A stretch of DNA of 64,000 bases from contig OZ029920.1 in assembly GCA_964023275.1 (NCBI GenBank), positions 5,977,014 through 6,041,013 of the forward strand, read 5' to 3'. Positions 3,134 to 59,096 of the stretch are shown piece by piece (positions within the stretch are counted from its first letter, which is position 1; each line of letters begins with the position of its first letter). The translations under genes were made by a program, and so were the position numbers. The stretch is from Norana najaformis (Eukaryota > Annelida > Clitellata > Crassiclitellata > Hormogastridae). The notes under the pieces are model-generated. The model had not been told where the DNA came from. It saw nothing but the letters and a program-made list of their open reading frames with translations, and searched no databases.

Positions 3134-3253
3134 CTTGGGAGGTCTTCTTGTTTTTCTGACAGTTGACCATTATCACTATTGTTGGAAAGTAAATAATTCC
3201 GGCAAATATTGAGATAAAGACGAAAAGGCAGGTCCAACCGGAACAATCACGTC
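3134..3253 (-). CDS. Receptor A transmembrane exon 2
   Basis: 120 bp, phase 1-1, acceptor CTTTCAG|GACG, donor CAAG|GTTAGC. Encodes a second hydrophobic helix (CLFVFISIFAGIIYFPTIVI) with a basic end (NCQKNKKTSQ) typical of a cytoplasmic stop-transfer. The matching receptor C exon (54476-54598) shares the signature FFPTIVI/YFPTIVI, an NC pair and KKTSQ. Two consecutive TM exons in one gene suggest alternative use; see findings. Confidence 0.75.
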
Positions 3254-6200
3254 CTGAAAGTAAGCAGTTGGAAAGATATTAAATGTAAACTCAATCAGCT
3301 ATTACGATGAATGCCCTATATAAGCAAACCTGAACAGAACACCCGAAAGTTTACGTTTATAGATAAACAAGAAAGCTGACTTGATCATACTGGAGAATGA
3401 GAAAATAGTGATATCAAGCAAATGAGAGTTTTACATACAGAACTGCATTTATAAAGTATGCCTGTTTGATAGACGCCGGTGAATGAGATGGTCTCCTTGA
3501 TGCAGCTTTAGCATGAGGCTAAGAAATTTCGGCAAATTCACATTACAATACATTTTTCTGGTGGAGCTCTTGCAATCTGACAGAAGATACGCAACCTGCG
3601 TTCTGAAAAGAAACTGGTACACTTGCCACCTTGCATTAATCTCCACGTTGGAGAGGTAGACTTTACAGAGGACCTTCAGAATACATCTGAGGCAACAAAT
3701 ATAAAACCCATCCAGTTTCTTGTTAAAGAACTCAGTGGTCGGCCAGTTCTCACAAACGTTGACCTCACAACCGTATTTTCACAACACATCGAATCTAAGA
3801 TCTTAATCCTTATACGAGACTGCTTGGTGGGAATTGCCCCATCCTTTCTGAGGTCCTTCTGTACCTTTGCCTCGTCTATTCCTGGTCGTAGCTTCCTCCG
3901 TTCGGCCTCTCATGGTGCCCTTGTCTTCCATCGGTCCCGGAGCTCTACTACCCAGCATAGAAACTTTGCTTTCGTTGGCCCTGTATCCTCTACTGATGAG
4001 TCTATTCTTGAAATTGCGTTTTAAAAATCTTCATTTACGTTATGTTATGTTATGTATAGCTGCATCGATAAGACGTAACGCTGGTAAATTTGACCTTGAT
4101 GATAGACGCAATTGCAAGGTAGGCAGTTCAATAAAAGAAAATCTATCCTATGAATGAATGAATGAATGAGCGAATGAGTGAATGAATGAATGAATGAATA
4201 TTAAGAGATTAACGTGCCAGACATAAAAAATATTTGAATCTCAGGCACGGTCAGTCGCTCAGAGGGAGATAGCCAGTAGAAAATGGGGGAAAACTAGGTG
4301 ATAGGTGAGTTAGTAAAATAAAAGGTTTTAATTTGCTGCATGATGTATGAGATTGATGGAGCGGATCTGATTGAGAAAGGAATGTTGTTTCAAATCATGG
4401 GCGAGGCCGAATTGAAAGCATGTTCCTTAAAGACTTTTCCCACATATGGTTGTCGCAGCCTCAGAGGGTCAGTAGATCATTCAGATTTCTAAAATCGGGC
4501 GGATACATCAGCGCAGACATCTTACCTTTATTCATACAAGGCAACATCGTCTCCATTTTTTCAAATCGTTCGTTTAAGAGCATGTGACCCGTTTCGCTTA
4601 ATCCATAGTACAGAAGGAATACGGTCATAACCAGGATATTCACAGCCACGAAACTGACGATTCCTATTATGAGTCCGCACTGCCAGCCTGGAATACCGAG
4701 AGTTGCTCAAATTTATAAATAAAACCATAGATAAATGGACCGCAAAAAAGATGTTTCGTGTTCACTAGTAGACTTTGTAGGCTTATTAAAACATAATGCT
4801 TAGCAAACGGTTTGGTAATTATGTGGGTGCATATTATTGGATTCGTATGAAATCTTGTTTACTCTGATATGTAATAATGGCAATCAAACCAACAGTTTCT
4901 TTCAATCACTATATTGTTCTTTAACGGAATAGCATATAGCTATATTGTGAAACTAGGGTCAGCCTTTATTCACTCTCTGGCCACATAGGACACTTTGATT
5001 ATCTGCCTCTTAGCAACTGTAACCTGCTAATTGTATAGGCTCCAAAAATGCATGCAATTCTGCAGCTATTCTATTTTTAATTACTTTCTTTTAATTTATT
5101 GCTTTTATGGAAATGTACATCTTGTAATGCTGCCGCGTGCATTGTTATCCTAATGCTCCATTGTCTTTAATCATGTTGCGACAGTTAGTATAAAATCCGA
5201 TTAATAACAATATTAAATAACATAGATAGTTATGATGATCTATCCCAGATTCCCATATACAGTGCCACGAATACGAGTCACAATTTTAAAAGAGTTAAGA
5301 CTGCAGTTGCAAATATAATGTTGAAACTTACCACAAGTACTAGTATCATTACCACCACCCCCTGCCTCTGCAATAAATAAACTATCCAGTATATGCATAA
5401 TGCATTGCAATTTTTATACAGTGTGCATACTAGTTTATTTAAATCATGACAAGCATAGGGTAATTAAACGTTGACAACCTATAAATGACGCTTATTCATC
5501 ACAGATTAAAAGTAAGGCCTTAGATTTATTGTACATTGATTTAAGACTTTAAATATGTAATGTAATCTATGTGAACATTCATATAGCTTCACTTAAAGGA
5601 AACTTCTCGACAGGTTCCCACCGAATAAAGCCATGCCACGATTAAACAAGATCGTGTTCAGGCACACACCATAGTCACTTGTTCTCCTAGTATTAGAGTC
5701 AATTTTTCCTATACATTGAGACGATAATGGCTATCTTCGGCCTAGCAGATTATGGCTTGATATTAAGACTTGCTATGTTCTACTGAAATCACTCACGTTC
5801 TTCATACATACATATATACATATATATGTATATATATATATAGTCCCCTATTAATACTGTAAGTCACCTATAAATACTGTTATTCCTGTTAGTCACCTAT
5901 TAATAGCTCTTCCTTGTTGTCTGCAAATAGGGTTTTCTTTTAGTTACAGTACTGTAGAATTCCCGACTCATGCCTAGAATCCGCATTTAGGCTGCTAGTA
6001 CTAATGGAATTTGATATTTTTGTTTGGTTTAGTTTATCATACCAAGTTAGATTAGATTACATAATTTCTTTGAAATATTACGAAAGAATTATTGAGTTAT
6101 ACGTTACCACAAATCCTAGTTTCAAGCGATGCTGAAACACAAATTGGGAAATAATTAATTCGATATGTAAAAGAAATAGTGAACTTTGAAATTAATAGCT

Positions 6201-9200
6201 TTCCATTCTTATTCATATCTTCTGGCTCAGTTCAAGATTGCCAATGGCCCATTGCCTGTGAGTCTTCTGCTCCTCCAGTCCACTCAATCGCCTGATCGCT
6301 TGCACACGAGTTTTCTTCATTTCACTCGATCCCGGTTAACTTGCAATGGTTGTCACACAGATTGCTTTTCCTCTGAACCACTTAAAACCCCTTGCTTTGT
6401 TATGTAAATGATTTCCCGTATGGTTTGCTACACCATGGTTGAATTTGCAAAGGGTTGAGTTTTCGACTCCAGGTCAAATGTCTGTCCCAAGATATGACCA
6501 TCATATCCCTCTGGGTTTGGTTTTAACCACCTCCCTCTCTATTAACCCAACCTGTCCCAGTGATTTTCATTCCCTTCTATAATGATTAATGCATTGCTAT
6601 AGATTATGGTTAATTGTCTTAGTAATCTTCATTTTTTTCACTATTTTGTTCTGTTTGGTTGAGCTCAGTATGACCTTCAACAGATGAAGCAATCACTGTC
6701 AGTCTATAAACTTTTCGATGCATTGCCTACAGATAATACATGGCTTCAAGCCTAAATTTTCCGGGTGTTTTTGGAATTTTCAACCTACCCAGGTCAACAG
6801 TCAACCTCGTTGTTTCTTATCTTCGATACTGTGTGCTTCAGGAACTCTGAACATTCAGTCATTTTTCAACTCAAGTTAGAAATCTGTTCGTAGGGCTATG
6901 CGTGCATGAGCGAGCTTGCCCTGGTGACCCTTCTAGTTATCTGAGCAATGTTTGCTAAATAGACGATCGTTCATTGATTTTTGTTTGTTACCGAAGTCTC
7001 GTGCGCCGAGATTCGACTCGTCCATTCTGAGGGGCTACATCACATATCATTGCTCCTCTTCTTTGACGCTGCGTATTCCAGGCACGCTAATTAGATACTG
7101 AAAATGAGTAGGTCTACTGAAACTTAGAATGCCGAAAAGACGTCTGAACGGACTGATCCTGCTTTGCGTGAGGGCTTCTACAATTACATCGGCGTCAATT
7201 GCAAGAGGTGCGTGTTGGTGAGGTGGCAGGTTTGTTCAGATATCTGTGTGTTTCCTAACCACCTGATGTTTCGTATAGTGAAATAAAGTATCCTATAATC
7301 GCAATCGTAATCTCGAGATTTCTACAGCGCCCAACGTAGGCTAAGTCGCGGGAACTAGCTTATTCACAGGCGCTCAGTCAAACGAAATCGATAGGCAAAA
7401 GAGTACGGTTCCAGGTCAAGATCCAGGAGTCAGGCAGTCAGGCAGTCAGACAGTCGGACGGCTACGGTCGATGGTATATATCCCACAAGTTATACGTAGG
7501 AAAGGCGCTCATTTCCTTTTCTGAGGCCTTTGAGCCGACAATGGACGAATCCCAATGTCCTGAACGCGGGGCCAGCGCATCGCAGGAATTGTCGTTTTAC
7601 TTCCCAGCTTACGCCGGTATCAAATACTACTGCTTGATGACAGAGGCACAGTATGTGCAAACAACTTGCCTAGGGTTGTTACATCGAGTCGAACCAGCAA
7701 CCACATGATTATTGACCAAACGCTATACTGATTGACCTTCGTGCAGCATTTAGTACGCTAATCAATATGCATAGTGGCATTCTCAAAGCATTCCTAAGCT
7801 TAGCCAGGTGATTTCCTTAAATAATAAAATAACAGTGATCATTGGTCAATATTTAACAGAAGCAACCTGGCTTTGGTGTTTTGCTTGTCTCATTTCTTTT
7901 GTGTTACCCGCGTAACATTCAATATTGAACTATAAATTTCTATTGCATTACAAACTACAAAAAAGGCTTCACAAAACGTATACATAGATATCGCCAAATT
8001 ATTGGTGCAGATGTAAGCATACATACCGCATCTTTCGACAGTAATATTGGATGAGATTCGATATTTGGTGCCCCGAATTTCATTCTCTGCTGTACATTGA
8101 TACGTTCCATTGAATGTTGCATTGATCGTTTGGCTGGGTATTGTTTGGAAACATCTTTGATCTTCGACGTTACTCCACATATAGCTAGGCATAGGATTTC
8201 CTTCGGTGTTACCTGATAGCATTGTCCATCCGTCGTTGCAGTAGCATACGCTACCGTAACAGTCAGATCCAGTTAGAGTTAAGTTTGTTACTTCGTCTAC
8301 AAAAAACATGTAAATTAAGAAGCTTAAACCTATTTTTCGGGCTACGCCCACTTATTATCAGAAACACTCAGGCATAATGCTTTTGCGAAACGGTGTAAAT
8401 TGTTTGAAATTCAGATTCATGTAAGCATAGTAATTTGATTATATGGTCTGTGATTATATAAAATTGGATATTAGCCTATTCAAGTAATTCTATTAATTAC
8501 ACTAGCATTCGAGAAAAAAGTTCATATGGCATCCATGACCGTGCTGAGCAGACATGTCGTCAATGTTAGCCACATGTTAACTCATGCAAAATCTGCTTTG
8601 ACATTTAGTTCTAGTTATCTGAACGTGAACGTTCTATCTTAAAATCTGAAACATCTCTGTTGTAGGTGTAGTCTTGTTAGGCGCAGGTTTGCACAAAGCT
8701 ATCTGCGTCTGCAGACCTCGGCGGGTTTAGGCAAACCCGTGCCTAAAAAACAATAGCTACAACAGCATTGTTTCAATTTTCAAGCTAGAAGGTTCATATG
8801 ATCCGATATGACAGGATATAGGAAGCCCACATGGGAATATTTTCAGATGGGCTTCATATGGCTTAAATCTGACGTTGCTTTTGGGGTGGCTAGGGTCGTC
8901 CTTAAATAAAGTGCTATAACATATTCATTATATGATCCCATTGAAAACTCTTTAAAATTCTGGGAAAATCGGAAGACTAATTGCGATACAATTTACTTGT
9001 CTGTAATGTAGTTTGCTTAGAATTTATCTTAACTGACCCAAATTTGTTTCTATATGCCATCGGTGGAGTGAGTGTGCACTAAACATAAAGCCATTAAGGC
9101 AACCATTTATTTTTATTGCCTATAATAACTAATATTTTAAAATAATGGCTTCTCATTGGGCCCACTACCTGGTTTGACTCGGAATGGAGAGGTGAGCATA

Positions 9201-12200
9201 GGGCAGTTAGGCATTCTGAGCGCCGTTACAGACGATCTGAATTGCTGAATTGATCATTGATGGATTCGACTTCTGCAGCAAAAGCATTCCTTCTTTCAAG
9301 GCGAAGAACAGCATTACTGGGAGAATATGACTGCCCGCCACTCAAAGTACAGTCAGCGGCTTTGGAGTGATTTATCATCAATCACTGGTCGTAATGGCAG
9401 CTCGCAGAGTCCATTATTCTCTGAAAAGGATTACATGTTTCGCCTTAACAAGCAAGTCATTGATGTCCGCCGAGATACGGAAGGCTCTGCCCCGCCAACG
9501 TATACGACAACTCTAGGAAGTTTGAATAGTGACAGGAGTTAAGCTGAAATCGTTTCGCTTGTCTTCGCCGTCAAAATTGTGTTCGCTCAACCCGATTCTA
9601 ACTTTCCTCCTTCAAGAAATTGGTGATGAGCTGCTTCCGATGTTGGTGCGACTCTGAAATACATCACTAGCTGAAGGATCTCTTCTAGATGGTCAAAAGC
9701 GAGCCCTCATAAAGCCCTATCTTAAGAAGCCAAGATAGGACCATAATGACTTCAACAGCAATCGGTCAATCACGTTCCTCTCGAACACTGCTTAGAAAAA
9801 ACAGGCTTAGCAGACACTGCGCTATCTCGAATCGTGCAACCTTATGCCAAATCTGCAGTCCGACTTTAAGAAGGGCCATTATACAGAGACGGTCATGCTT
9901 ATCTCCGACTTATTTGATGCTGAGGACTCTGGAAAAGTCACGCTGCTTGACGTCAGTGCTGCACTTGACACGGTTGACCACAACATCTTGCTGACTCGAC
10001 TCAGTGCTTCCCATGGTATTGTCAGTCAGCCGTTGGAATGGCAAGGCTCTTTTCTGGTTGGGCGAAAACATGAAGATGGAGATTAGAGTGGACAGATCGG
10101 AGTCGGCAGCAATCCTATACGTTGTGCCACAATTCTCAGTCCTTTGGGCTCTTCTGTACATATTGAACACAAGTCATCACAGCCCTTGGAGCCATGATTC
10201 ATCAATATGCTGATGATGTTCAGCTGTACTCGACTTGTCACTCGTCGGATGCGCTTACTTGTGTAATAAAGGTCAGGTCATTCTGATAAAGGTACAGAGC
10301 TAGATGTAGTCGAATCTGCTACGTTTGAATTTCGCAAAAATGCAATTCATATGGCATGGGTCCCGGCAAAAGCGATCAAAGATAGACAAAGAGACAATAG
10401 CGGCGGTATTCCAGAGTTTGGAACCACTACATATCGTCCGGGACCGAGACGTGCTCCTGAGTGAATATCTATCGATGATATCACATGTCAATACTTCCTG
10501 CAGGTCCTGCTTTTAAGAGCAGTGCCAGATCAAAGTCATTCGGCGTAATCTATCATTCGATACACCAGTGACCCTTGTTCACTCTTTCATCGTGACTCGC
10601 CTGGATTATTGTAATGCTGTTCTTGCAGACCTGACAAAGTTTCAAAATCGCCTGCTTCAGTCTACCCTCAACTTCGTCGCCCGGATTTAGGCCAACTTGC
10701 CAAAATTTTCGCATATCTCAAACTAAGTGCGAAATACACTGCATTGGCTTTCTGTTGACCCCAGAATACATCACGGAGATTCTTATCCTGTCGTGTACCA
10801 GCCGACCGACGAATGCCGAGTTCGGCAGCCCAAGGAAATCTCACAGTTCCGGCCTCCTGAACGACGGTCGGGGCACACCGTGCTTTTGAGTGCATTGAAC
10901 CGTCCCTCAGGAACAACATTACTCTGAAAATTTGATCTCTTTCGCCTCTAACAGCTCAAGAAACATTCTCAGCCAATCTTAACATGCACCTTTATAGAAC
11001 TTCAGCGCATTTTTGAGCTTCTTGAAACGCTCTATGTAAGTCTTTGGATACATGCATACATACATACATATATACATAGCATAACGATATTAACCGAGAA
11101 TGATCTTTTAGAGAAAAATTAGTTAAACTCGCCAGTATTTAAATGCCCAAAACAACTTCTTCTAACTAAAGTGGAAATACGCATTGAACACAAATAAATA
11201 TACAAAAATATGAAAACTCTGCGAGGCCATGCTGTGCGTAATTGACGGAGCATTAGTAACATGACCTGGATGATTCTGCGGCTGTTTTAACTATCCATGA
11301 CCTCATGTAACTGGCTACAGTGTGAACAGACTTTGTTGGTGTATCATCGACTGATGCCTCGTACATTATCGTAACGGCGATATAGAAGTTCTGAGATCTG
11401 ATAAGTTAACATTTAAGTTCCATACAATATACGTTGAAAACCGATGAAGTGGTGCTTTTTGTAATCGTTGGAGCGTTTGTTGCATAATTAAAGGAGGAGT
11501 TCGGAAGATTCTGAGGATGACCAAAATATCCGTGACAGACGAATGGTCCGATTGAATTGCTCGACCTATCAGGCTTCACTAAGATGTTAGACTGAACAGA
11601 ATTTGGCGGTAGTGATGGAGAAAGACTACTGGAAATGTTTTCTCCCGTGGAAGACGTCCAGTAGATGGAAGGAGGCAGATGTGGAGCCGGAGAAACAGAT
11701 CCATTGTATCCAATTGTGCAGGATACGCGTAGAGTTTCCCCCACCACTACATCTGACTGATTTGCAGTAATACTTGGCGGCGAATCTGAAACAGTCAAAA
11801 GCGGAAATTCTGACGAATTTTGGCACGGGGTATGCAATAAGTATTTATTCATTCGACAAGAAAGTAAAAAGATTATTTATCGAAAATTCCACGGACAGCC
11901 AAGAAGAGTCGCTAAAATTAAAGTAACGAGAGTACGCGACTATTTAAAATTTAAGCTTTAGGTAGGCCTATTTTGTTCACCAAATAAGTTTGACGTAGTT
12001 CTCGTTTGCAGAGACGAGGAGCAAGTTCAGCTATTGAACACTTACCGAACTGAAGCACATGTAGACTCAAATTTTATTAGAACATCAAATTTTACTTAGA
12101 ACATAAAACCTCGAAGAATTTTTCGCCCCCATTTTACTGCGTCGAATGAGACGATATGTATTTTCGTTGTTCCATAATGAATGACGGCAATTTTTATATG

Positions 12201-15200
12201 GAAACCAAAATTTATGGTATACTCTTCAAGTACTTGTTTATAAGAGGTTCTTAAAACATGCTATTTAAATGTCGAGTATATATATATATATATATATATA
12301 GACGATACGTACAGACGATGCAGACATAAATACATGCATAGATATATACATAAAAATACATGCATATAAACATGCATATACATATTGCTATCAAAACTTA
12401 ATAGATGCGCTGATGTACATTTAAATACAAACCTATAACTGTCATAAGGGCACGCACATTCTCCTCGAAAGTTATTCCATCAGAACAAATATAAACGCCA
12501 GCCTGCCGCGGAGTAGCGTCGAATACGATCAAGTTGCAAGTAGTCTGGAATCCTCCCGATGGTTCTGTTTTGTAGTGAACAGCGTATCCCGCAGTAACGT
12601 TACAGGCGGACGTGATCCTTTCATTGCTGGATGAGGATAACGTACCATCTCGACTCAAATACCATCCTTGCACCAGAAAATCACTCGTACAGTTGAAAAC
12701 GGCTGTTCCTCCAACTTGAACAGCTGCATTTTGCGGATGCTGTGTTAAACGTCCACTGGAACCTACAATTTCAGGCATAAATGAAGATAGCTATAAAATA
12801 TTTGTGACAACTTCCATGGTTTTTGCATTTGCTGCTTTGGCTGTGCGATGGCAGATAGGACAACGCAAGGGTGCTCGAGCAACCAGGAAGCTGCAAGAGA
12901 GCGATCGGGCGATATAGACTACTGCTGTTGATTGGGCCAAGCGTCTTGAAGACTAGTGGAAGAGCGTAGTATTTTGCGCATTTTCTGAGAGCCGCTAGCT
13001 CAGCAGATTCACCGCCCGACATAGTGCTTGTGGATAGGTAAAAGTATATGGGGTCGTCGAATTCTTTGCCGAATATTTTTAAAATTGAAATTGGCGGTTA
13101 TGGCGGCCGTTGCCCTTCATAGTCAGTACAACCCACTACCAACGGTTGCCTTGGTTGGCCAAGAGCAGATGGTGCTGGGGTTGGTGCAACTGGAGCTCCC
13201 GGTGGCATCCTGGCTGGCATGCTGGAAACTGGTCGACTAGGTGCACCTCCAAATCTCATGGTCTTGTCTTTAATCGCAGGCATGAAGAAGCAACCTTGAG
13301 TCAGCGGTCGCGTAAGTGTAGAGCGTTCTGTCGGCGTTTCTTTGATGGACCGCAAGGTCTTCCGGTAGGGATCGGACGAACATCCAGCACCTCCAACTTC
13401 CTCCTCTTCGTCGCCGTTGTCGTCTGCTTCTATGGCGCCTGCGTCTTGTACTTCGCTGACCCGAGTGCCGACGTCTCCTCGACTTTGACCCGCCGGTTGA
13501 ACTTTGTTAGGCGCTGCGGCTCCTTGACCTTGAGGACCTTAAGGATCGGTTGGAACGCGTTGGCTGGGTCTCGTCGACCAGCTGCAGGCCCTCTCCGCTT
13601 CTTTAATCTCGGCTACAGGAACCGCCTTTTCCCCTTCTTTGATTTGGCTGCAGTCGGTCTTTGTCACTGTATTGTTGTCGATGAAGACCTTAATTTGTGA
13701 GTAGACAGATCGCTCATTACATCGAGTGCAGCTTTTGATATCATGAATTGTCTGACTGCCTCTTCTGGACGAATTCCTTCAGGTCTCGCTCGTCTTTACT
13801 CCATTTAACCTCTGCTAATGCGTCGTCATAACTGAAATCCATCACTTATTCCATCAATCGAAGGTCAGACGGAGACATCTGTTCTCGGTTATGTACAAGA
13901 CGAGGGAAATGACGAGGAAAAGAAGAAACGTGGTCTCTGATAGAATGTTCGTCACACTCAGCTGAGGCTGTCTTCCGAACGAAGATCTTCGCTTAAAGTT
14001 TGGTCCAAGGAAGTGCCAATAAAGGCAACAGCATTAAAGCGCTGGATAGCAACAGAAAGGTTTGAAACTGGAAAGAAGTCTCCCTTTTGTCTCTCGACAC
14101 TTGGGTTAAATAGCGACCAAGTTTTTTTTATAAGGCTTAAGCCTTCTTGAACCATAGGAACGAGAGTCTTGAAGGTCAACAGCGGTGTGTCGAGAAGATA
14201 TCGATGTATTTTGCGATCTCTCGTTCTGCTGCGACCTCACAGCTGCGCCCGTGACCACGCCAGTTCTGGATCGATACTAATCTGCCAGTGTCGATTACTG
14301 TTGCGCCCCAGGTCAAGCATTTGCCCCTCCTGCAGTGGTTTATTATTAGGACTCTTTTTAACTCGATACCTTACTTACTCACTCAATGTTAGAGGCTTAA
14401 TTGCTCTCTTTAGTCACACAAGTACTTGAGCCTACTATGTGTTACAGGCATTGATCTTATGCTGCCATACACCTTACCCAAGCACTTTTCTCTATAAACA
14501 GGTTTCTGGTAGAATTTGGCTCGTTAGAATGTCAATTTAAATGATTTTATTAAGAAGATTTAATCATAATATGTCCAAACTGTTCATTTTACATTTATGC
14601 AATGAAAAACATGTTAACTGCCATGAAATTATCTAATCCTAAGAATTAATAACCCCAAGATGATATTCTCCAGTTCCAATCTTTCTTGAGTCCTGCAGAA
14701 GATAAACAGGATTTACTTCACTTTTCACCTGGCAGTGCGGTCTATCTGGTAGTCTTTCGAGTTGACTAGGGCAATATGGTGAACCCTGCAGACGATCTTG
14801 GATTGTCACCAGGTAGAATTGGAATTTCTCGGTTCTTTCGACAATGATTCGACCGAACGTTACACGTTCGGAGACTCAACTGGATATTTAATTAGTCAGC
14901 AGTTTCACGAACAAATGATTCATTCAGATACGACGATCAATGCTCCTTCAGCTCGTTATGACTCACGACGAATTTCTATCATCTGATGTCAACGACAGTC
15001 GACAAGTTCGATTAGTAAGTCTTTCCGCTGCTCTCTTTACAGCTGAAACTCCACCTTAGATCGAGTCCATCGGCGACTAAGCTCACTTAAATCGCCCGAT
15101 TAAACATTGACTCCGAGAATTAGCCTACGAGGTGTCTTAAACAACCTTTCGCGTCTGTAACCACCGTTAGGCTAAGGCAACTTTTGAACGTTTTACGCTT

Positions 15201-21983: not shown

Positions 21984-22369
21984 TCAATCAACATTATCGC
22001 TCACGTTGTTTATATGGTCTGATTTATTTCTAGGTCTAAGTTCTTGGTAGGTATGTGGTACGGGTTGGTTCAGTTCTTGATAAAATGCATCAATTTGTGA
22101 ACTCAGTTCGTTTGATGTTAGGTGCGGCTGTGACAGCTCTTCATACGCTGCTTCGGTTTGTTGCAGGTGTTGGTTCCAAGTTTCGGGTCGCTTCGGCTGT
22201 TCGTTTAATTTCACGGCTTTGGAATGCGGCTCGAATAACTGTACAGGTTGTAACGATTGTTCGTATGATAGGCCAAGAGTTGGCGAAGTTTCCGGAGAAT
22301 TTGTCGCCGTACATTCAATGTCAGTGTCCCTTTGGTCCAAATAGCGTTTGCTTGAATTCGTTATCGAAC
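21984..22369 (-). CDS. Receptor B cytoplasmic tail exon with ITAM-like motif
   Basis: Terminal exon, acceptor CTCAATAG|GTTCG, about 128 codons to the stop. Tyrosine motifs in order: YEQS at about 22265, YEEL at 22145, YQEL at 22082 and YQEL at 22049. The last two form YxxL-x7-YxxL (22082-22038), within the ITAM consensus. The tyrosine motifs are followed by a recurring Gln-Pro (YEELSQP, YQELNQP), suggesting a short internal repeat. The rest of the tail is hydrophilic and Pro/Gln/Ser-rich with no other domain. The open plus-strand frame over the same DNA is its shadow. Confidence 0.75.
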
Positions 22370-34940: not shown

Positions 34941-34941
<1 letters not shown>

Positions 34942-34998: not shown

Positions 34999-35001
<3 letters not shown>

Positions 35002-35362: not shown

Positions 35363-35444
35363 ACCTGGTCCTTGATATGGACAAGGCAAGTGTAACTGCC
35401 TTAAAACTGTTTGATTTCCCTGCCTTAGGTCCCTGAAAGCAATT

Positions 35445-39857: not shown

Positions 39858-39859
39858 GT

Positions 39860-41810: not shown

Positions 41811-41814
41811 TAAC

Positions 41815-42115: not shown

Positions 42116-42170
42116 ATGGCGGATGAAAAGATTAGAAAATTTGCTCTGCTGAGTATTTGCTTCATAACAG
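42116..42170 (+). CDS. Receptor C leader exon (signal peptide)
   Basis: ATG at 42116; MADEKIRKFALLSICFIT then ACAG|GTAGTC, phase 1, 55 bp. A charged start (DEKIRK) is followed by a hydrophobic core (FALLSICFI). Nearly identical in plan to leaders D and E (MTNKAFLKFARLSIFIIT, MANKGIIKFAQLSIFFII). Confidence 0.8.
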
Positions 42171-48100: not shown

Positions 48101-51100
48101 TTACTCATTTACTTGAAGTAGTGAAGAACTCATGATACCCAATCTTAGCAGTCTTTTACGGATAGCATTTATTTAAACCTGTGATAACCTTCTGATTTTG
48201 AGCAAATAATTGGAGCAACAGTTTCTAGTATAATTATATCTAGAAACCAGTGTAGACAGTACAACATTTCTTTTTTTCGGCCTTGACATATAACATATTT
48301 CAAATGGTCTATTTTGTATCACGTAGCAACGAATTTTATTTTATTCTGTTTTTATACTATTGTCATGCACATACCTCTTATACAAAAATATTATTTCCAG
48401 TCTAAGTGATTTGTACAAAGACTTTTCCTTGTTAGATTCAAACGTCAACATATCTTCCAATTCAACTGATTTCCTTGCTGGAGAAAAAGTTATGATATCA
48501 AGCAGCGTCGCCTATAGGGGACCCTCGATACAACCTCCTCCGTTGTCTCCGTTGTTTACCTGGAAGCTGCAGTCGGATCCCAGTCAGGTTATCACCAGTT
48601 ATCCATCAACAACCAACACGAGTGCATCTTCTAGCATCATAGTTACACCTCAAAAGCCAATTGTTCCTTCATATCGCTGCGAACTTTTCTTCCATGTGCC
48701 GACTTATGTTCCTACAAGCTGTGATGCTGATGCCCCGAACTATCGCACCAGCTGGGAGACACCGGCTTACTACAGCGTTTCATGTGAGCAATTGATATAT
48801 TTTATAGCTTATTTATAATTATTTCATTGTTTCAAGACTTGCATCTTATACTTCTTAACTCAAACAGACCTCTATATAAAAACCGATAAAGGTGTTTGAG
48901 CTGATAGTTTGTCTGCGTGACTTGATGTTCTTTTATTAGAACGTACAAACGTCAAATGATTTTAAAAATTCTTTTTACTCTAAAATAAACTAGTTAGAAT
49001 CTATTTAAATGCAGTTTCAATAATGATAACTGAGCAGTTTGGTGCAACAGAGTGTACCCGCTTTACTCTACAGAGTCAGAGGAAAAGACGACAGAATATA
49101 GTAAATATACGTTTTACTCAAGCTGGGCATCATACCAACTTCAAACAGCTCTTCAATTTAATGCATGTTTATGGAGATGGTAATTTTTGGATTAATATGC
49201 AAACATATTCAACGTTCTTTGAATTCATTCTATGTCTACCCAGTCTTGGATTCTTCGCGTCTTGTTTATCTTTTTGAGTTAATTTAAAGAACTTCTGTAT
49301 AATCTACTAAAACAGTTTTAACTTAAACCAAAGCTTTCCTTCACTTTCTTTCACATACGACCATACATACATACACAGACATACTTATCTACCTACCAAC
49401 ATACGTACATATTTACATACATAGATATATACATACATATTTACATACATGCATACAAGCACACATACAAATATACATACATACATTGATACATACATAC
49501 ATGCATACATATATAGATACATACATACTTACCTACATACATATATTCATACATATATGCATAAATATACATATGCAAATATACACACATGCGTACATAC
49601 AAATACACTAACTAGGCGTTCTGCTTTGCGTGCTAACTCCACAATCACAAGTGATTCCAGATTTAGTCCAATTCAAATCTTTGCTAGAAACTGATCTCTG
49701 TCAAATACCGTCTCGATCAAAGGCCACCATTATTTCTGAAAACGTTTGTCCCTCTCCGCACAACATATGACCGTCCTGCAAATCGCTTCACTCTGTGTGT
49801 CTACTTTTAATAATACGTTTTATGATATGCTTGTCATGGGTTTTAAGAGTAGCTAATTATACAAAATATTATTGTTTTTATAATTGTTGTTTTTGTTATC
49901 ATTGTTGTTGGTATTATTGTTGTTGTTATTATTATTTTTATTATCATGATAAAATTATTTTACCAAATGCACCGCTAGTGCGAAGAAAGGAAACTCAGGA
50001 GAACCAGTGTTTAAGATAACATAATACTGAATGATATATCTAGTATTCCCGATAAAATGTCTTAGGTATTTACTGGTTCTGCAACCTTTTATCGTGTTTG
50101 ATAGAGTGCTTATTTCTTTCACAACAGATCCGCCTGAAAATATTAGTATCTCAGGAAACCCAAATCTATGCCAGTCTGAAACTGCAAAACTGACATGCAG
50201 TGCATTGGGTTATCCACCCCCAGCATATATATGGTTCGACTTAGCCAGCGGCAATGTCATATCCAGTGAAAGTACTGCTTCAATTAAACAAAAGGGATTG
50301 TATCAGTGCGTTGCCTCAAACACAATCGGAAGTGTGCTGCATAGTATACTTACCAATGCCAATGTTGCCGATTGCGGTAAGTGGAGATTTTCCATCAAAG
50401 TGCAAAAAGCTAAGAAAACTGTGGTTGACCGGCCACAACGCAAAATGTAAAAGATTCATAAATAATAACAATTTTATTTAAATAGCACAAGAATTGCACA
50501 TTAGTATCATATTTAAATTGTTCTGTTCGCTGCCGTTTATTTCTATTATTTTAATTATTTATGTTTTAATTTGATATGAAACAATTAAGGCCCTATTTCA
50601 TTTCATTTTGTTTCATTTCAACGAACTTCCCCGCTGTTCAATAATTGCCGACGCTGGCCATCGCTTTAGGCCAGTGGTGGGTGGCCTAGTTCCCCAGAAT
50701 CTCGATCTTCCTACTGTCGGGACTTAGACGGTCCCGTGATCTTACAACAGGGTGAACCCGAACCCTGTCGGATCAGCGGAACCAGCCAGGATCCAGACAG
50801 TGTTTTGTTAAGGCTGCGACTCTGGAGCGCACTGATTAGCCTTTTACCCGGACCCCATCTCGTCTCGTCCGAATGTATATTTTGTAACTTGTATCTAGTA
50901 CGGGCTTGACTTGTATGCGTTGTGTTCACAAACCACACAAATGTACTGTGTATATTCGTGACCAAACGATATCAGGATGTGTTGACATCCTGTAACAAAT
51001 AGGATGCATGAACATGCAGTACATGCAGAGCGCACGATTCGCCTCTCCACGACTTAAGCGATGCACAGTGTGACAACCCTTATTCAACCTCTTTTTCGCT

Positions 51101-54100
51101 GTATGCATCCTATACTGAAGCTCGGACGACGCTTTCTTTGACTTCCGCACTTGTTAGAGAGCTATAATTGCTATCGTGCGAAAGCATGCAGAGAAACAGT
51201 TAACACAAGCGTCAGATTGCTCGAAGGCCACCCTACTGTAAACATACGCTACCTGCACTTGCTCGAGTTCCTTGTCTGATCCTCAGGGCTTTACCACAAT
51301 CAAGCTTTTACTTTTAGTTTCGATCTCGATGCAAGCCTTTCTATACAATATAGCTTTATTCCTAGTTTATTTGATACTAATCTAATCTATTGACTTTTAC
51401 AGCGCCTTTGTCATAATGCTCAAGGCATTAATTGATGCTTGCTTTAAGCGAAATGGTGATCAAAACTTGTAATACTTTAGAGAAGCCAGGTCGAGTTCAA
51501 ATTGTTGCCTATGTTCGGTTTGGCTGTCATCTCCAGTTAAAGTCTTATTTGCTTTAGCTGCATAGTATAAAATAAGTCTGTGATTTGGTTTAATTAATGC
51601 ACATTTTATCACTCAGTTAAATTATGTATTATATTGCTTAAAGTTCTAATTTAAAAAAGCAAGAACCATTAATATGACTAACGATCTGAAGACAAGATGA
51701 CTGAGTACATCATTGAAGCAATTTACTTATCAGTGAGCATTACGAAAGCCAATTCTGATAGTTTAGTTTCTCAATTTAGCTTCTACTTATCTAGCACATT
51801 TACTTTGGGGTCGTCCTTAAAGAGCGTGCGCATGTTTGACCGAATTAGGACCCCTCCCTCCCTTTATTCGCGTTTGGCATTAGACTTACCATTCCCCTTT
51901 GCGGATGTCCACTCTTCAACGCTATACTAAGACCTAGATTAGACTACTGTGTTGACTTGCATTGCTAACTGTGCTGCGGGGTGGAATTCCTGCTGCGTAC
52001 AAAGCAAAGGGCCTCTAATTAAATTCAACTCAGTAAAAGACAGTGTGCAGTTTGACTGAAGTTGTTGTTTAAAGTAAAGGCTGTTCAAAAATAAGCACCT
52101 AGACTATTTTTAGAAGCGGATGTCCGATTTGAGCATAACCCCTTCACTTTAGAATCACCGCAAAATGTAAAAATAACTGCTTCATATGGCCCATGTGAAA
52201 GCAGTGCAGACTCCTGTAAAGATCTCTCTTCCGACACTTTGACTTGCGAAGCTTCCGGCTTTCCTGATCCACAATATGAATGGTCATATTCTGGAGGGAG
52301 CTAAGTTGGACCTACAATTGTTGCCAAGAAAAATATTGAATATATAAGTGCACAGCAACAAACTATTATGGCGGTCAACCACATTCTGCTTCTTCTACTT
52401 TGACAGTTCATTGGTTAGGTAAGTATTTTGGTGATCGATTTCAATCAAACATCATCTGCTGCTGTACTAAGCAACAATCGGAAACTAAGGCTGCTGAAGC
52501 TCGGTCCAACGACAACCCAATTTTACTTTTTTATCATACGCTATTCAACTTTGCATAAGCTAAGAACTTTTTTGGCAAAATGTTGTGCTACTTTGGAGCT
52601 GAAGACAACATGATAAGACACCTTAATCCCAAAAAAAATATTGAATATAAATGCATCGCAGCAAATTATTATGGCGACCAATCACATTCTGCTTCTTCTA
52701 CAATAAGAGTGTACTGATTAATTAAGTGGTTTGATGATCGATTTCAATCTAACATTTAATTTGTCAGTGCATATTACATAAGTCAATATTGATAATTAAA
52801 GTTTTAATTATTAGCTCTCAGTTTTGGATTCTGTTTACTATAAACATATTCAGTTTCTAAAAATGAAAACTAGTACAGACTTTCTGTTTAATTTTCAGCC
52901 CTTGCTATTTGCGGTAAGATACCGTTTAACTCGTCACTCGCTTTTCTTCAATACTTTGTATCCTGAAGAACAAAGTGCGATTTGTGGGTTCAAACAGTGG
53001 AGTAAGACCTGTTGGCAGTGAAATTGCCAGGAGGTGGTGTTCGGGGGTTGGGATGAGCACCCGAGCCGCCATAAATGTTGCAAGTAATGTTAATCGACTA
53101 AGTTACCCAATAACCATCGTTTAGCAAACGAAGCTGCAAATGTGCTTTGGAAATGTTACTAAGGCTGTGTATATTAATAAAAAAGTTAATTTTTATAAAA
53201 GGTGAATGAAGTTACTTTGATGAAGCATATTGCAGACAGCTTTTTGCTGAGTGAATGACAATCACTGTGGCCATTTTATTCACACAGCATCTCTGTGTGG
53301 TACCTAAAAGGCGCTTTATTAATTGTCTATACATACATACATAGATACATAAAATTGCACTTACATACATGCATACAAACAAACATAAATGCATACATAT
53401 CTACAAACAACTATATACGTAGATCATTATATCGATATTCGCTACTGAGTGAAGCACAAAGACAACATAAAGGACATCAATCAATTGTTATCGCCATGCG
53501 AAGAAGGTTGTTCCAGTGCTTAGAATTTCTTAGCGTTTATAATTACGATTGTATTATCTAACTCATACGACCTTCTTTGCAAAAAATCACTTGATGTCTT
53601 TTCGTACACTTAGGTCGCGTCCACTTCGTGAAATTTGAGCGAGTTATCCATACAAAAGGCATCGATGACGATGACAGTAGTTGAGATGTATCTACTTTTT
53701 ATATTAAACTGATCTTTTCGTCAATTCTATTTTCATTTTTCTTCAATGTTATAATTTCAGTACATCTGGGAATTTCCGATACTGTATGTATCACTCTATT
53801 AGTCATCGTGATATTTTTTATACTAAATCTGTTGTGCTTTGCTGGATTCGTCCTATACTACGCCATTTCTGAAAGTGGTCTCAATAAACTGAACCACCGA
53901 TCTCCATGGCTTAAAAAAATGCTGCCTAGCATGAATAATGAAGGTAAGTCTTCGATATAAATTAAATAAATAGGTAAAGATATAAATTCTGGTTGCCTTA
54001 ATTTCAACTTACTTCCTTTTACGCCTTTACAAATCAAATATTACTAGTTATACTGTTTGATAGACACTGTACTATAAGACTAATTTTTTTTGAGCAAAAG

Positions 54101-55553
54101 TTTAAACTAGAACATAGCAGTTTATATTGGTTGGCGCCTATTGGTAATTTATGCTAAAATCTGAAGCGCAGTTTCTTTTGTTTTCTTTTGAGTTTCCTGA
54201 TTGGCACTATAGCTCTGCCTGTGTGGTGTAGCCTAACCGTATGCAACGATTGAATTAAGTGATCAGTAAAACTCATTCCAGATTGAGATTACTTTCATAA
54301 TCATTGTTTTTCTATTAGGGTATTTTAAACTTTTAAGTAAGGTTTCTTTAAAAAAATTATGATGGTTAATACTCAATGTATGTTCCCATACATGCATACA
54401 TATGCATAATTATAATTAAGTCATATTAACTGAGCTTGGACTTATGAATTTTATTGACGGACCACGTTTCCATAGGTTGCATATGCTCCGTTTGGATTTT
54501 CTATTTCGTCATCTTGTCGATATTTACTGCTATCGTTTTCTTTCCAACAATAGTAATTGTGGCCAACTGTTGCGAGAAAAGCAAGAAAACATCTCAAGGT
54601 ACAATTGTATTTCATTAACAGATTTAACCTAATAGGTGAACTGTGAACAAAGTTGCAATGCAATAATTGTAGATAGAGAAATGCGTGACTTGCCATGCCT
54701 TTTTAACGCTTTGTTAGGTTGTAAACGACTGACAAGACCCGAATGTATATTGCTTCAATAAAGTCGTGTGCGATTGTATAAGAGAAAAGTGACCAAACCC
54801 ATTTTGCTTTCCTAAGAAAACTGAAAAATTGTTACTAAGGATATCGGACACATTGAACTTGAAAGACTGTTACACAGCTCTGCAATGCAATGCCTATCTT
54901 AAACAACGATAAATATTTTGGATTTTGGATCCAGTTGTCTCATCCAGTTGCTCTTTATTAAATATTCAAGACGTAACTGATAAGAAACTACAGGCTATGA
55001 AAATTCATTGTGATAATCTAGCTGAGCCTGTACGAGTATGTGCTTGCATTTCGGGCTCTATAATCAGTATCTGTGTTCCAGTAGTAACTGAAGTCGTCCT
55101 GAACAAGGCCCAGGGCTCATATTAAATATAGTATAATAGAGTTACGCAGACGTTCTAAAGAATAGAAATTCCCCTGTATAGTTTAATGCTTACTATTGTG
55201 AAAGTCAATGGATATACGGTCAAGGTTGCATTTTCTGGGCATTACTGACTTTTAGTTTGCAGCTATAGTTACAATCGGCAATTTTTTAACAGTGCATATG
55301 TATGACTACTTATATTGTGAACGCCTGGGCTTCAATGGCTTTTATGTTGTCGAATAGCTTCAATGGCTTTTATGTTGTCGTTATTCTTCTATGTGTTAAT
55401 ACAGGCGACATTAATCTGCGCCGAGAAGCCCATGTCTATGAAAACGTAGTGGAGTCGATCACTTTGCCTGAAACTTCGTCATACGAATCGCTGCAACAAC
55501 CCACACCAGGATCGACAATATCTATTTACGAAGAACTCAGAGATTTTCAATGA
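42116..55553 (+). CDS. Receptor C: complete Ig-superfamily receptor with tyrosine-motif tail
   Basis: Exons: leader 42116-42170, V-like Ig 46399-46722, second Ig 48436-48783, third Ig 50128-50376, stalk micro-exon 52899-52913, TM exon 1 53761-53943, TM exon 2 54476-54598, tail 55405-55553 (stop at the end). Every join is GT-AG, phase 1. The total is 1446 bp, or 481 residues plus stop, which checks as a whole number of codons. A decayed fourth Ig exon (52143-52419) lies between the third Ig and the stalk and is assumed to be skipped. The membrane module is homologous to that of receptor A. Its tail has YENV, YESL and YEEL. Expected to be a type I surface protein; role inferred as recognition and signalling. 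Which TM exon is used is unresolved. Confidence 0.75.
42855..43040 (+). mobile_element. LINE 3' end with ACAT tail
   Basis: VTRQQQALADPLPVQQFKKH-like frame followed by GTCGTGCTGCAGAGCCTTTGTGAG, AAGGCGCTTTACAAATTTAC and (ATAC)n. The same 3' end is seen at 10960-11080 and 29860-29985. In the leader-to-V intron of receptor C. Confidence 0.65.
43040..44200. other. Receptor C first intron, nothing recognised
   Basis: Short open frames on both strands without similarity. Confidence 0.35.
44220..45470 (+). other. Possible decayed gag-like sequence
   Basis: Three broken plus frames: MAETEISDTASEQGKGVVAA (44780), a Glu/Lys-rich coiled-coil-like stretch with RRLEETFLHCQ and GRLEETFMQRQ repeated (44893-45084), and a polar frame (45182-45466). 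The organisation of short acidic start and heptad-like repeats resembles gag regions of LTR retroelements, but no protease, RT or LTR pair is visible. Low certainty. Confidence 0.3.
46399..46722 (+). CDS. Receptor C V-like Ig domain exon
   Basis: 324 bp, phase 1-1, acceptor TTTAAAG|GCGTG, donor GTTG|GTAGGC. B-strand QTVFNC, C-strand NLTWLHTTD, F-strand GGCYACADG, with additional Cys at TTDC, NNCNL and SLSC. Aligns with A and B over CNL-[IV]-VF-x-A and over the HY-[KR]-T block (AAHYRT versus VHYKTEP). More diverged than A and B are from each other. Confidence 0.85.
47205..47710 (+). repeat. Interspersed repeat, copy 2
   Basis: Counterpart of 24290-25040 in the V-Ig2 intron of receptor C; shared blocks listed there. 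Shorter, with internal deletions. Confidence 0.5.
47710..48435. other. Receptor C intron, nothing recognised
   Basis: AT-rich with poly-T stretches leading to the second Ig exon acceptor; no frame or repeat identified. Confidence 0.4.
48436..48783 (+). CDS. Receptor C second Ig domain exon (B-strand Cys lost)
   Basis: 348 bp, phase 1-1, acceptor TTGTTAG|ATTC, donor TCAT|GTGAGC. Homologous to the second Ig of A and B by start (DSNVNISSNSTDFLAGEKV), Trp (LFTWKL) and F-strand (VPSYRCELFFH). Where A and B have VSC, C reads MISSSVAYRG, so the canonical first Cys is replaced by Ser; another Cys (PTSCDADAP) follows the F strand. The Ser/Thr-rich centre (STTNTSASSS) may carry O-glycans. Confidence 0.8.
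49357..49608. repeat. Imperfect (ACAT)n array
   Basis: About 250 bp of ACAT-type units with interruptions in the Ig2-Ig3 intron of receptor C. Confidence 0.95.
50128..50376 (+). CDS. Receptor C third Ig domain exon (I-set)
   Basis: 249 bp, phase 1-1, acceptor CACAACAG|ATCC, donor TGCG|GTAAGT. A clean I-set plan: AKLTCSALGYPPPAYIWF at B-C and KGLYQCVASNTIGS at F-G, preceded by DPPENISISGNP. Both canonical Cys are present. Corresponds to the third Ig of A and B (all end in a Cys followed by the split Gly). Confidence 0.85.
50380..52140. other. Receptor C intron, nothing recognised
   Basis: Includes a moderately GC-rich stretch at 50640-50830 with an antisense frame; no similarity recognised. 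Confidence 0.35.
52143..52419 (+). pseudogene. Decayed fourth Ig exon of receptor C
   Basis: After a CTTTAG acceptor comes a recognisable I-set domain: SDTLTCEASGFPDPQYEWSY, then an in-frame TAA, then NIEY, a two-base AT insertion, KCTATNYYGGQPHSASSTLT and a donor TTAG|GTAAGT. The stop and the frameshift mean that inclusion would truncate the receptor. The splice sites are still good, so it could still be used as a poison exon. Confidence 0.7.
52632..52750 (+). pseudogene. Partial second copy of the decayed Ig exon
   Basis: Repeats about 120 bp of the end of the 52143 exon and its following intron (NIEYKCIAANYYGDQSHSAS, then TGGTTTGATGATCGATTTCA). Here the reading frame around EYKC is intact, lacking the AT insertion. 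A local tandem partial duplication. Confidence 0.65.
52899..52913 (+). CDS. Receptor C putative stalk micro-exon
   Basis: 15 bp, phase 1-1: AATTTTCAG|CCCTTGCTATTTGCG|GTAAGA, encoding LAIC between split codons. Strong acceptor and donor flank a frame-neutral length at the position where receptor A has its 36-bp stalk exon, and both end in Cys plus a split Gly. Plausible but supported by splice signals alone. Confidence 0.4.
53283..53415 (+). mobile_element. LINE 3' tail with ACAT array
   Basis: AAAGGCGCTTTATTAATTGT runs straight into (ATAC)n, the same junction as at 43005-43030. Confidence 0.6.
53761..53943 (+). CDS. Receptor C transmembrane exon 1
   Basis: 183 bp, phase 1-1, acceptor ATTTCAG|TACAT, donor GAAG|GTAAGT. 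Hydrophobic helix ITLLVIVIFFILNLLCFAGF, then VLYYAISESG and WLKKMLPSMNNE. Homologous to receptor A TM exon 1, with a 21-bp longer juxtamembrane part. Confidence 0.8.
54476..54598 (+). CDS. Receptor C transmembrane exon 2
   Basis: 123 bp, phase 1-1, acceptor TTTCCATAG|GTTGC, donor CAAG|GTACAA. Helix WIFYFVILSIFTAIVFFPTI continuing VIVANC, then CEKSKKTSQ. Homologous to receptor A TM exon 2, one codon longer. Confidence 0.8.
55405..55553 (+). CDS. Receptor C cytoplasmic tail exon with paired YxxL motifs
   Basis: Terminal exon, acceptor AATACAG|GCGAC, 49 codons to TGA. Tyrosine motifs: YENV at 55437, YESL at 55482, YEEL at 55527, spaced by 11 residues each. YESL-x11-YEEL is at the long end of the ITAM range (x6-12). 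As in receptor B, a Gln-Pro follows one motif (YESLQQP). The acceptor is preceded by a 28-bp tandem duplication (55331-55386) that may affect branch-point use. Confidence 0.75.
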
Positions 55554-55998: not shown

Positions 55999-56393
55999 AA
56001 GAAGACGTAAAGAGTTAACGAATCTTTCGCACACCTGCTTAAATCTTTTAACCTGGACTTTGAACGTACAGCTCATACTCATTTACCACCAATATCAACA
56101 GCGTGCTTAACTTCGTGGGCTACATCTTTTTAGAATATGTGTTGCTCACTTCTTAAGAAATTACACTATTTATTTAGTCTAGTTTATGCATGTTGTCATG
56201 TTGTGAAGTAGATCTGTTGAACTTATCGGGCATAGTGCCGCGTTATACATATTCTGAAGTAGATGTTTTCGAGTTGTCTGGGTGGGATGCCGCGCTATCA
56301 ATGATCTACGCTCTGACTTAGCCCTGGTACAAACACTTAGGCCTAAGTTTTATTCATGTATATAGGAAGTAAATTGGTATTCATGCAGGAAAC

Positions 56394-56448
56394 ATGACGA
56401 ATAAAGCATTTCTAAAATTTGCTAGATTGAGTATTTTCATCATAACAG
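56394..56448 (+). CDS. Relic D leader exon (signal peptide)
   Basis: MTNKAFLKFARLSIFIIT, donor ACAG|GTAGGC, 55 bp, phase 1. The open leader and conserved upstream region show a third plus-strand gene start, but the V exon that follows at 56961 is dead, so this is probably a pseudogene head or a donor of alternative 5' ends. Confidence 0.6.
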
Positions 56449-56960: not shown

Positions 56961-57735
56961 CGTGGACAGAACCATAGTTCAGAGACCGTTGAAAGTGAAT
57001 ATAAATATTAGCGGTTGAGCTGTATTCTACAGTTCTAGTGACACTGAGCACTGATATTTAACGTGGTCGTATGGAATAACCTCCCGCCAGAATTACGATA
57101 ATTATCTGATCAATCAAATGAACTCACCAGCACTTTACCTCTTGCAATTTCTGCACTGGTCTTTCACTCACTCCGGCTAGTATTCCTCAATTTGTCTCTT
57201 CCGCAGTTTCACAACCGCCTGAAGTCTGTATTATTTGACAGTGGTCTCACTGGTTCGGGTCGGGAGCGCTTCTGATGAGTCTTTTCTTGAAGTGGCGCTT
57301 TATAAATGTCAGATTACAATTACAATTACAATTAGAATTACTCAAAACTAAAAACATTACTTTTCCAAAAGTCTTATCTTAATTCTTCACCTTCCCCTTA
57401 TCTCTCTTTTCGCTTCAGTTCCAAGTACCATCCACCGTAGCCGTCCGACTGACTGCCTGCCTGACTTCTGGATCTTGACCTGACAGCAAACCCTTTTGCC
57501 TATCGAGTTTGTTTTGACTGAGCGCCTTTGAATGAGCTGCTTTCCGCGACTTAGCTTTCGTTAGACACTGTAGAAATCTCGAGCTTACGATTGTGATTAT
57601 TCAAGTGATTGTAACGTTGCGGTGGTATCTACTTGACATCGAATAATTGCGATCTCAACAGCAGCTACGCAAGTCATTACGAAACCGAAAAGCAGGTGTA
57701 ATCGCGTGCAATTTAATCGCATTCTAAATTTGCGA
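56961..57735 (+). pseudogene. Relic D V-like Ig exon, split by LINE-derived insertion
   Basis: First part 56961-57085 matches the receptor C V exon (RTIVQRPLKV, AVFYSSSDTE, YLTWS) but has a one-base deletion at the acceptor, two in-frame stops and Cys replaced by Tyr. Homology breaks at about 57086 and resumes at about 57615 with DLNSSYASHYETEK and ACNLIAF-like remnants to 57735. The interval is LINE sequence. Clearly non-functional. Confidence 0.75.
57086..57614 (+). mobile_element. LINE 3' sequence inserted in relic D
   Basis: NNLPPELR..LSDQSN then LNLSLPQFHNRLKSVLF (RT C-terminus), followed by GGCGCTTTATAAATGTCAGA and an ATTACA run, then a second 3' block (CCGTAGCCGTCCGACTGACT, GTTTTGACTGAGCGCC, TGTAGAAATCTCGAG, ATTCAAGTGATTGTAAC). 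Its exact right edge can be set because the V exon resumes next to it. Confidence 0.7.
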
Positions 57736-58434
57736 ACTAACCTGACCTGTTCTCACGCAGGAATTGGTGGACATGTGACATCTGACTACTACCCACTATT
57801 GTTACTCGTTCGTCCTGACACTGTTCCCTCTCTCGTCCTCAGGTCACTTCCTCTCTGAAATCTAGTAACCGTTCTTTACGCTGCCCCAACTCCATGAACA
57901 GTTGCTGTAAATTAAAATTCTCTTATGCAAAAATATTTTATAGATAAAATCTATAAAAATAACTAATTTTCTCTGTCTTGTAAGTAAGTTACCATCTTAT
58001 TAGGGCTAGAAGGATATAAATAAATTTTAAATAAGTGGAAAGATGTTTTGTATCCAGAGAGTTAATATAGCGCCTTTAGTACCTCACATAAGTCGTACCT
58101 AGGTGGAGCTAATGTTTATTAAATTATCTCTAAGCAAATAATGCTCAGCTAATTAAACTGGTTAAAGTCCGCAGCTTAAGACGTTTACCACCGAAATCAG
58201 TAGCTACAGCCTATGTAGCCTACTTAATCAAGTCTTACAATAGCTATTTATTTAGTCTAGCAGACATATAGATCTATAACCTAGATATATTGCGAAAGTA
58301 CATATAATGAACATTTCATGGTAACCTGACGAGCCATTTAGGACCTACTCTATTACCAGTCTCCCACTGGTAAAACCACTTAGCCTAGACTTTCCGTAAG
58401 TATGTAGGATATATTGTGGGACTTGTGCAGAACT

Positions 58435-58489
58435 ATGGCGAATAAAGGAATTATAAAATTCGCTCAGCTGAGTATTTTCTTCATAATAG
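58435..58489 (+). CDS. Relic E leader exon (signal peptide)
   Basis: MANKGIIKFAQLSIFFII, donor ATAG|GTAGCC, 55 bp, phase 1. The 5' flank from 58163 resembles that of receptor C, and the intron at 58890-59095 resembles the 3' part of the first introns of C and D. The expected V exon after the acceptor at 59095 is missing; a SINE starts there. Confidence 0.6.
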
Positions 58490-59096
58490 GTAGCCTAATT
58501 ATTCTGCCAATTAGTAAGTATGCCTTTTTGTTTGTAACAAGCATAAAATGATAATGAGTGCACCTGGTGTACATGTAGTTTTTCAGACAAACATTGTGGG
58601 CCTTCAAACGGGTTTGACCTGGTTAGCTACATTGGTTAAAGCGTATTTCAAGGGGTCTCTATGCGTGAGGATGTCGGTTTGTACACCAATTATGGCTATA
58701 TTTGAGGATTTGAATATCGGGCTAGCACGGTCCGCACACGGAATCCTTTAATGGATGGCGCCCATTCAAACGGGCAGCGGTGGTGAAGGATCTCACCCGA
58801 TTAATTCAAAAATGAGCGAAGTCGATGCCATACGGTCGCTATATAGAATCGTGACGTTTACATTTGCATTTGGTGAAACTGCTCGTGTAATGCGTGCAAT
58901 AGCCTTTATTAAACTTGACAAAGGCGGGAAACTGTGTATTGCATACAAAATCGATAAGCTTATATTTGTAAACCAGTTTTTGATCTTCTTCAAATTGTTA
59001 GCACTGTTCGGTCCACCATTCAAAACAGTGGTCTTATAACAAAGACATAAGCATTGTTAAACGTTGCTATTATTTAGGACAGTAGTCATTTGCTTT

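Follow-up and report, generated by a model that had tools for sequence, protein, structure and literature searches.

A partly decayed cluster of V-set receptor genes with ITAM-type tails in Norana najaformis

Genes and relics of the cluster

The stretch of DNA considered here (the window) comprises 64,000 nucleotides of the Norana najaformis contig OZ029920.1 (contig C8 below, positions 5,977,014-6,041,013). It was read together with 70 kb of its left and 30 kb of its right flank, and searches covered the genome of 608,420,607 bases on 17 contigs. The window contains paralogous immunoglobulin (Ig) receptor genes, which make up a genuine cluster of V-set receptors, decayed in part and under selection, with cytoplasmic tails of the immunoreceptor tyrosine-based activation motif (ITAM) type. 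An earlier note on this DNA had listed five loci of the family, A and B on the minus strand and C, D and E on the plus strand. A, B and C are intact exon by exon, but D and E proved to be relics.

Gene A begins with a 55-bp leader exon that ends in phase 1 (16925..16979, minus strand) and has homologues in the flanking genes F, G and H described below. It is followed by a V-set exon (12433..12762), a second-domain exon that is Ig-like but of ambiguous class (11426..11785), an I-set exon lacking the B-strand cysteine present in B (8027..8296), a short candidate linker exon weakly indicated by the splice rule and its symmetric length (5332..5367), and two transmembrane (TM) exons, TM1 (4526..4687), homologous to exons of C, F and H, and TM2 (3134..3253). 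Gene B, on the same strand, consists of a V-set exon (31181..31510), a domain 2 exon (30319..30678), an I-set exon (28859..29131), a TM exon of a second type, different from those of A and shared with G (23554..23694), and a tail exon (21984..22369). Gene C, on the plus strand, comprises a 55-bp leader (42116..42170), a V-set exon (46399..46722), a domain 2 exon (48436..48783), an I-set exon (50128..50376), TM1 (53761..53943), TM2 (54476..54598) and a tail exon (55405..55553). Upstream of TM1, C also retains an extra I-set exon (52152..52419) decayed by a stop and a frame shift, with a second partial copy at 52631-52714 and stop-free homologues in G.

Both relics lie on the plus strand. D has a 55-bp leader (56394..56448) and a stop-containing V pseudogene in which about 550 bp separate a 5′ piece (56961..57067) and a 3′ piece (57621..57724). 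The insertion contains one copy (57426-57600) of a short dispersed repeat also found at 7295-7476 and 63430-63513, the copies being 81-86% alike. For E, only the 55-bp leader is supported (58435..58489), as no V match was found and no next exon was detected in the window or the following 30 kb at E-values up to 1e-3. Together with the genes J and M, located elsewhere on the contig and carrying stops in their tails, these relics bear out the birth-and-death evolution suggested earlier.

The 55-bp leaders attributed to the family were recovered in four window loci (A, C, D and E) and in three flanking genes (F, G and H), but not in B. There, an exact 55-bp scan returned nothing and a looser scan of 31560-42100 returned six rows unlike the family, while a signal-like stretch lies in frame directly upstream of the V exon. 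The sequences upstream of the start codons of C, D and E (42040-42116, 56320-56394 and 58360-58435) resemble one another, and each has a CAG shortly before the ATG, which could be an acceptor of the 5′ untranslated region or a trans-splice site.

The left flank contains three further intact genes, F, G and H, all on the plus strand. F and H are alike, with a leader, V, domain 2, I-set, TM1, TM2 and tail, both encoding about 510 amino acids, and G has a leader, V, domain 2, three I-set exons, a single TM exon and a tail. In the right flank, a search at E-values up to 1e-3 detected no additional family exon over 30 kb, hence the window represents the right edge of the cluster. The cluster placed by the earlier note within 56 kb is real but larger, since it extends leftwards to F, G and H and to 16 V matches at 5.25-6.02 Mb of C8. 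Genome-wide, the V exon of A has at least 76 matches at E-values up to 1e-3, distributed over C8 (those 16), C16 (28), C12 (13), C2 (11), C11 (4) and C1, C5, C6 and C7 (one each), and 74 of the 76 have no internal stop. The order of a V exon and then domain 2 recurs at the three other places that were read, on C12, on C11 and at 5.25 Mb of C8.

As previously proposed, internal exons are uniformly of phase 1-1 and multiples of three in length, in 15 out of 15 cases in the window and 16 out of 16 in F, G and H (31/31), and the 15 in the window are all bordered by AG..GT. However, exon borders were chosen under this very rule, and for several flank exons the rule permitted alternative borders, of which the one matching the homologue was then taken. 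The symmetry alone is hence no independent proof. Independent support comes from the recurrence of the same exons in F, G and H, with matching lengths (for example 330-333, 360, 162 and 120 bases) and the same borders, from Pfam Ig matches and from dN (nonsynonymous divergence) being lower than dS (synonymous divergence).

One duplicated block is common to A and B (window positions 5982-12827 and 25526-31575); it spans their V, domain 2 and I-set exons together with sequence from introns. Outside coding sequence, the distance between the two copies is about 0.07-0.10 around the I-set exon and beyond it, but 0.19-0.28 around the V and domain 2 exons. Such uneven divergence suggests that gene conversion or several events were involved.

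Domains, membrane anchors and tyrosine tails

When the V exons of A, B and C were combined into a profile and compared with the PDB, 175 sequences matched at E-values up to 5. The best 60 of the 175, which were viewed, bear T-cell receptor (TCR) or antibody names, with two uninformative names (‘G5-8’ and ‘Receptor B’), and the best matches are TCR V-beta chains. The best E-value (6.4e-6) belongs to a chain with two V domains, the better of which has an i-Evalue of 0.029 alone, and the best single-V chain reaches 3e-4. With a profile of six V exons the best match is still a TCR, and TCR chains account for 14 of the 19 rows, the other five being contactin-2 and NCAM2. The profile aligns to TCR and antibody V chains over positions 4-96, and both cysteines are invariant in the six exons. 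Single V exons score below the Pfam V-set cut-off (21.8 versus 26 bits for B, 15.8 for A) and that of C has no Pfam match on its own. On the profile match and the B- and F-strand cysteines, domain 1 is classed as a V-set.

Domain 3 is in turn assigned to the I-set from its profile, which matches contactin-5 at an E-value of 2e-16 and also resembles DSCAM. As a single domain, it exceeds the Pfam cut-offs for Ig_3 (35.9 versus 30 bits) and I-set in C and remains below them in A and B. When the exons are joined into proteins, A and C exceed the Ig_3 cut-off, while B scores 27.7 against 30 bits. The class of domain 2 is ambiguous between Ig-like and sushi: Pfam yields a weak Ig_3 match in A and B and none in C, and the best PDB match is the sushi protein complement receptor 1 (E-value 0.035, weak), yet no Pfam sushi match was obtained at E-values up to 1. 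The B-strand cysteine is missing from domain 2 of C and from domain 3 of A and H. Overall, the V-set and I-set profile matches of the ectodomain exons agree with the initial description of the loci as paralogous Ig receptors.

Two types of membrane anchor are present in the family. A, C, F and H contain both TM1 and TM2, with the FPTIVI of TM2 kept in all four, while B and G have a single TM exon of the other type; a broken gene, M, retains a relative of TM2. In the three TM exons whose flanking charges were tested (the TM1 and TM2 exons of F and the single TM exon of G), the C-flank carries +2 to +3 and the N-flank 0 to -2, a pattern as for a predicted anchor with its N-terminus outside and its C-terminus inside the cell. 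Because the joint use of TM1 and TM2 would place the tail outside the cell, they are most likely used alternatively. Past the TM2 donor, the open frame continues for one residue in A, F and H and for six in C before it meets a stop, therefore TM2 could also end a silent isoform.

The YxxL tails reported earlier for B and C are present in both genes. The tails of B, F, G and H are homologous. The full ITAM pattern (D/E-x2-Y-x2-L/I-x6-8-Y-x2-L/I) was found in B by a pattern scan (DAFYQEL-x7-YQEL, with a YEEL further upstream) and in F and H by reading the tails, which showed only the core of the motif in G. In an alignment of these four tails, the ITAM segment has 19 identical columns out of 21 (dN/dS, or omega, 0.28), compared with 11 of 15 in the block around the first YEEL (omega 0.58) and 34 of 79 in the remaining tail (omega 0.83). 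The six frames of the window contain one full ITAM against 0.2 expected, and 5 of 30 simulated windows contained at least one, so that the motif is persuasive by its conservation in the neighbouring genes rather than by its count.

In the tail of C (YENV, YESL, YEEL), all three tyrosines align with those of the other tails. Between its last two YxxL motifs, however, lie 11 residues instead of 7, and the ITAM pattern is not matched. Two of its three tyrosine motifs (SSYESL and SIYEEL) fit the immunoreceptor tyrosine-based inhibitory motif (ITIM; [SILV]-x-Y-x-x-[LIV]). Because K, a C-like gene about 0.7 Mb away, has a tail with the 7-residue spacing, the spacer of C may have been lengthened. A is probably tail-less, as the 15.4 kb to the left of its two TM exons yielded no tail exon.

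Selection and divergence among the V exons

Between A and B, omega is 0.50 for V, 0.28 for domain 2 and 0.40 for domain 3, with bootstrap ranges all below 1, and further pairs give 0.41-0.53 for V and 0.28-0.69 for domain 2. The dS of the V exon exceeds that of the other exons in five of eight pairs (A-F, A-H, F-H, B-G and G-H; P at most 0.0065), which fits either old V lineages whose other exons were homogenised or exon shuffling.

Variation within the V domain was analysed on six exons (A, B, F, G, H and J), that is 15 pairs. The number of residue types per column averages 3.00 from the first cysteine to the tryptophan, a segment resembling complementarity-determining region (CDR) 1, 2.78 in the CDR3-like segment after the second cysteine and 1.76 elsewhere, and none of 109 circular shifts is as variable as the CDR1- and CDR3-like columns. 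Pooled over the 15 pairs, omega is 1.32 in the CDR-like loops and 0.40 in the framework. The proportion of nonsynonymous differences (pN) exceeds that of synonymous differences (pS) in the loops of 10 of the 15 pairs and in the framework of none. The V frameworks are thus under purifying selection, with divergence focused on the loops.

Proposed function and relation to known receptor systems

These observations probably reflect the edge of a cluster of germline-encoded, single-chain V-set recognition receptors that signal through ITAM-like tails. Such a receptor would consist of a signal peptide, a V-set domain followed by another Ig-like one and by between one and three I-set domains, a TM cassette and a tyrosine tail, the membrane anchor being provided by one of two cassettes, TM1 plus TM2 or the single TM. 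The CDR-like loops of the V domain may bind a surface or microbial ligand, and the resulting clustering of receptors would allow the paired YxxL motifs to be phosphorylated by a Src-type kinase. The 7-residue spacing found in B, F, G, H and K would suit a Syk-type kinase with tandem SH2 domains, hence an activating role, while the longer spacer and ITIM-type flanks of C would favour an SH2 phosphatase and inhibition. Without a tail, A could act as a competitor or a signal-less form. The recognition-receptor interpretation put forward in the earlier note is supported in part, by the immune-type tyrosine tails and by the concentration of variation in CDR-like loops.

Several observations weigh against this interpretation. 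The exon models are predictions from genomic sequence, and AlphaFold confidence (pLDDT, predicted local distance difference test) is too low for a usable model of V (38) and weak for domain 2 (53). The V and domain 2 exons of C are just 25-37% identical to their counterparts in A and B, so that C and B are not strictly paired. The ITIM consensus is loose, and by eye both tyrosine motifs in the tail of K also carry the ITIM-type serine. Over the whole V exon, omega is below 1 in all 10 pairs computed. Some exons lack constraint, namely domain 3 between F and H (omega 1.04) and the TM exon between B and G (1.34, on few changes), and whole-tail omega ranges from 0.55 to 1.39 (F-G 1.01, G-H 1.08, F-H 1.39 with 2 silent changes). 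The V excess in dS is absent in B-H and F-G and marginal in A-B (P 0.053). Regarding the loops, pN is at or below pS in 5 of the 15 pairs (B-H, B-J, F-G, G-J and H-J), which share branches and are not independent; furthermore, the loop limits were set after the variability had been seen, with columns 43-49 and 55-60, also variable, kept in the framework.

In the strongest competing interpretation, the genes encode innate receptors for microbes, diversified by pathogens and without a role in allorecognition. This is a serious possibility, if somewhat short of an even chance. The many loci over several contigs suit a repertoire, and each flank contains an open reading frame (ORF) with a CARD domain; none of the results in the cluster, however, separates self from microbial ligands.

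A system of the fester/FcoR type known from Botryllus schlosseri, or from close tunicate kin, appears unlikely although the domain order and the probable alternative splicing near the membrane are similar. FcoR proteins are described as a signal sequence, a V-type Ig, a sushi and two C2 Ig domains, a TM region and a long tail with ITIM, hemITAM or YxxI/L/V motifs, in 520-610 amino acids (PMC12065747), an architecture that resembles the cluster genes, including the lengths of F and H. By description, both systems thus share a signal peptide, a V-type Ig domain placed first, further domains, a TM region and an immune-type tyrosine tail, as well as clustering, birth-and-death evolution and alternative exons near the TM region. 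The best PDB match of domain 2, a sushi protein, also points weakly in this direction. Against this, Pfam detects no sushi domain here, and the tails have ITAM spacing, with full ITAMs, where FcoR has hemITAM or ITIM. A HECT ligase adjoins each fester locus, and FcoR clusters occupy three chromosomes, one of which lacks fester genes (PMC12065747). An exon-wise search of the best candidates gave 81 HECT matches in the genome, none of them on C8 and thus none near the cluster genes, and the smallest distance between a HECT match and one of the 76 V matches is 1.26 Mb, on C2; however, a cluster with FcoR only might lack the ligase. Among animals, the GH6 family is not known outside tunicates. A search of the genome for it gave 0 matches, but its controls were silent too, making this weak evidence.

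It is improbable that the cluster consists of decaying neural or adhesion Ig genes whose YxxL motifs, which can also serve as endocytosis signals, have no immune role. The resemblance of the I-set domain to contactins and DSCAM, the relics D and E and the stops in the tails of J and M would agree with such an origin, but the first domain is a V-set, divergence is focused on its loops and the paired-YxxL segment is conserved with its 7-residue spacing. The least probable interpretation is a cnidarian allorecognition complex of the Alr type, as in hydrozoans. By published description, Hydractinia Alr1/Alr2 resemble the cluster genes in being single-pass proteins with a hypervariable, V-set-like first domain and immune-type tail motifs in a large Ig superfamily cluster with many pseudogenes (PMC3276163, PMC11067881).

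Germline V-set receptors with ITAM-like tails, as favoured here, also have partial parallels in other animals. Vertebrate paired receptors (FcR, KIR and Xenopus XFL) likewise combine clustered Ig genes, activating and inhibitory forms, domain shuffling and phase-1 exons, but their classical activating members use an ITAM adaptor, whereas the cluster genes carry the ITAM in their own tail (PMC2413239). The oyster receptor CgIgIT2 does have an ITAM in its own tail, although it is described as one protein with five Ig domains and not as a V-set multigene cluster (PMC11999971). Going further, the cluster might tentatively be regarded as an undescribed germline complex, likened to known systems by description, in which TCR-like V loops diversify under selection while the rest of the gene is homogenised. 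One ancestral ITAM tail would have given rise to ITAM (B, F, G, H and, judged by its spacing, K), ITIM-like (C, spacer from 7 to 11) and tail-less (A) forms, and the TM cassettes would select signalling or silent isoforms. This scenario is doubtful. The cluster itself bears on two open questions relevant to allorecognition and to the origin of immune receptors: the specificity of germline receptors and the derivation of activating and inhibitory tails from one another. Neighbouring paralogues that combine CDR-like V variation with tails differing in spacer or presence make signalling polarity concretely testable.

Outside the receptor genes, an ORF matching CDP-alcohol phosphatidyltransferase at window coordinates 69666-70037, in the right flank, marks the right border of the cluster; the ORF at 67545-67793, with no Pfam match, appears by eye to be the same gene. 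The CARD-domain ORFs lie at window coordinates -67899 to -67552 in the left flank and 92172-92576 in the right flank, and two more ORFs, one on each side, appear by eye to be related to them. Within the cluster, reverse-transcriptase-like and transposase-like ORFs recognised by eye (27883-28752, minus strand; 20674-21557, plus strand) appear to be mobile-element remains, and an imperfect self-complementary repeat of 200 bases (76%) occupies 34024-34222.

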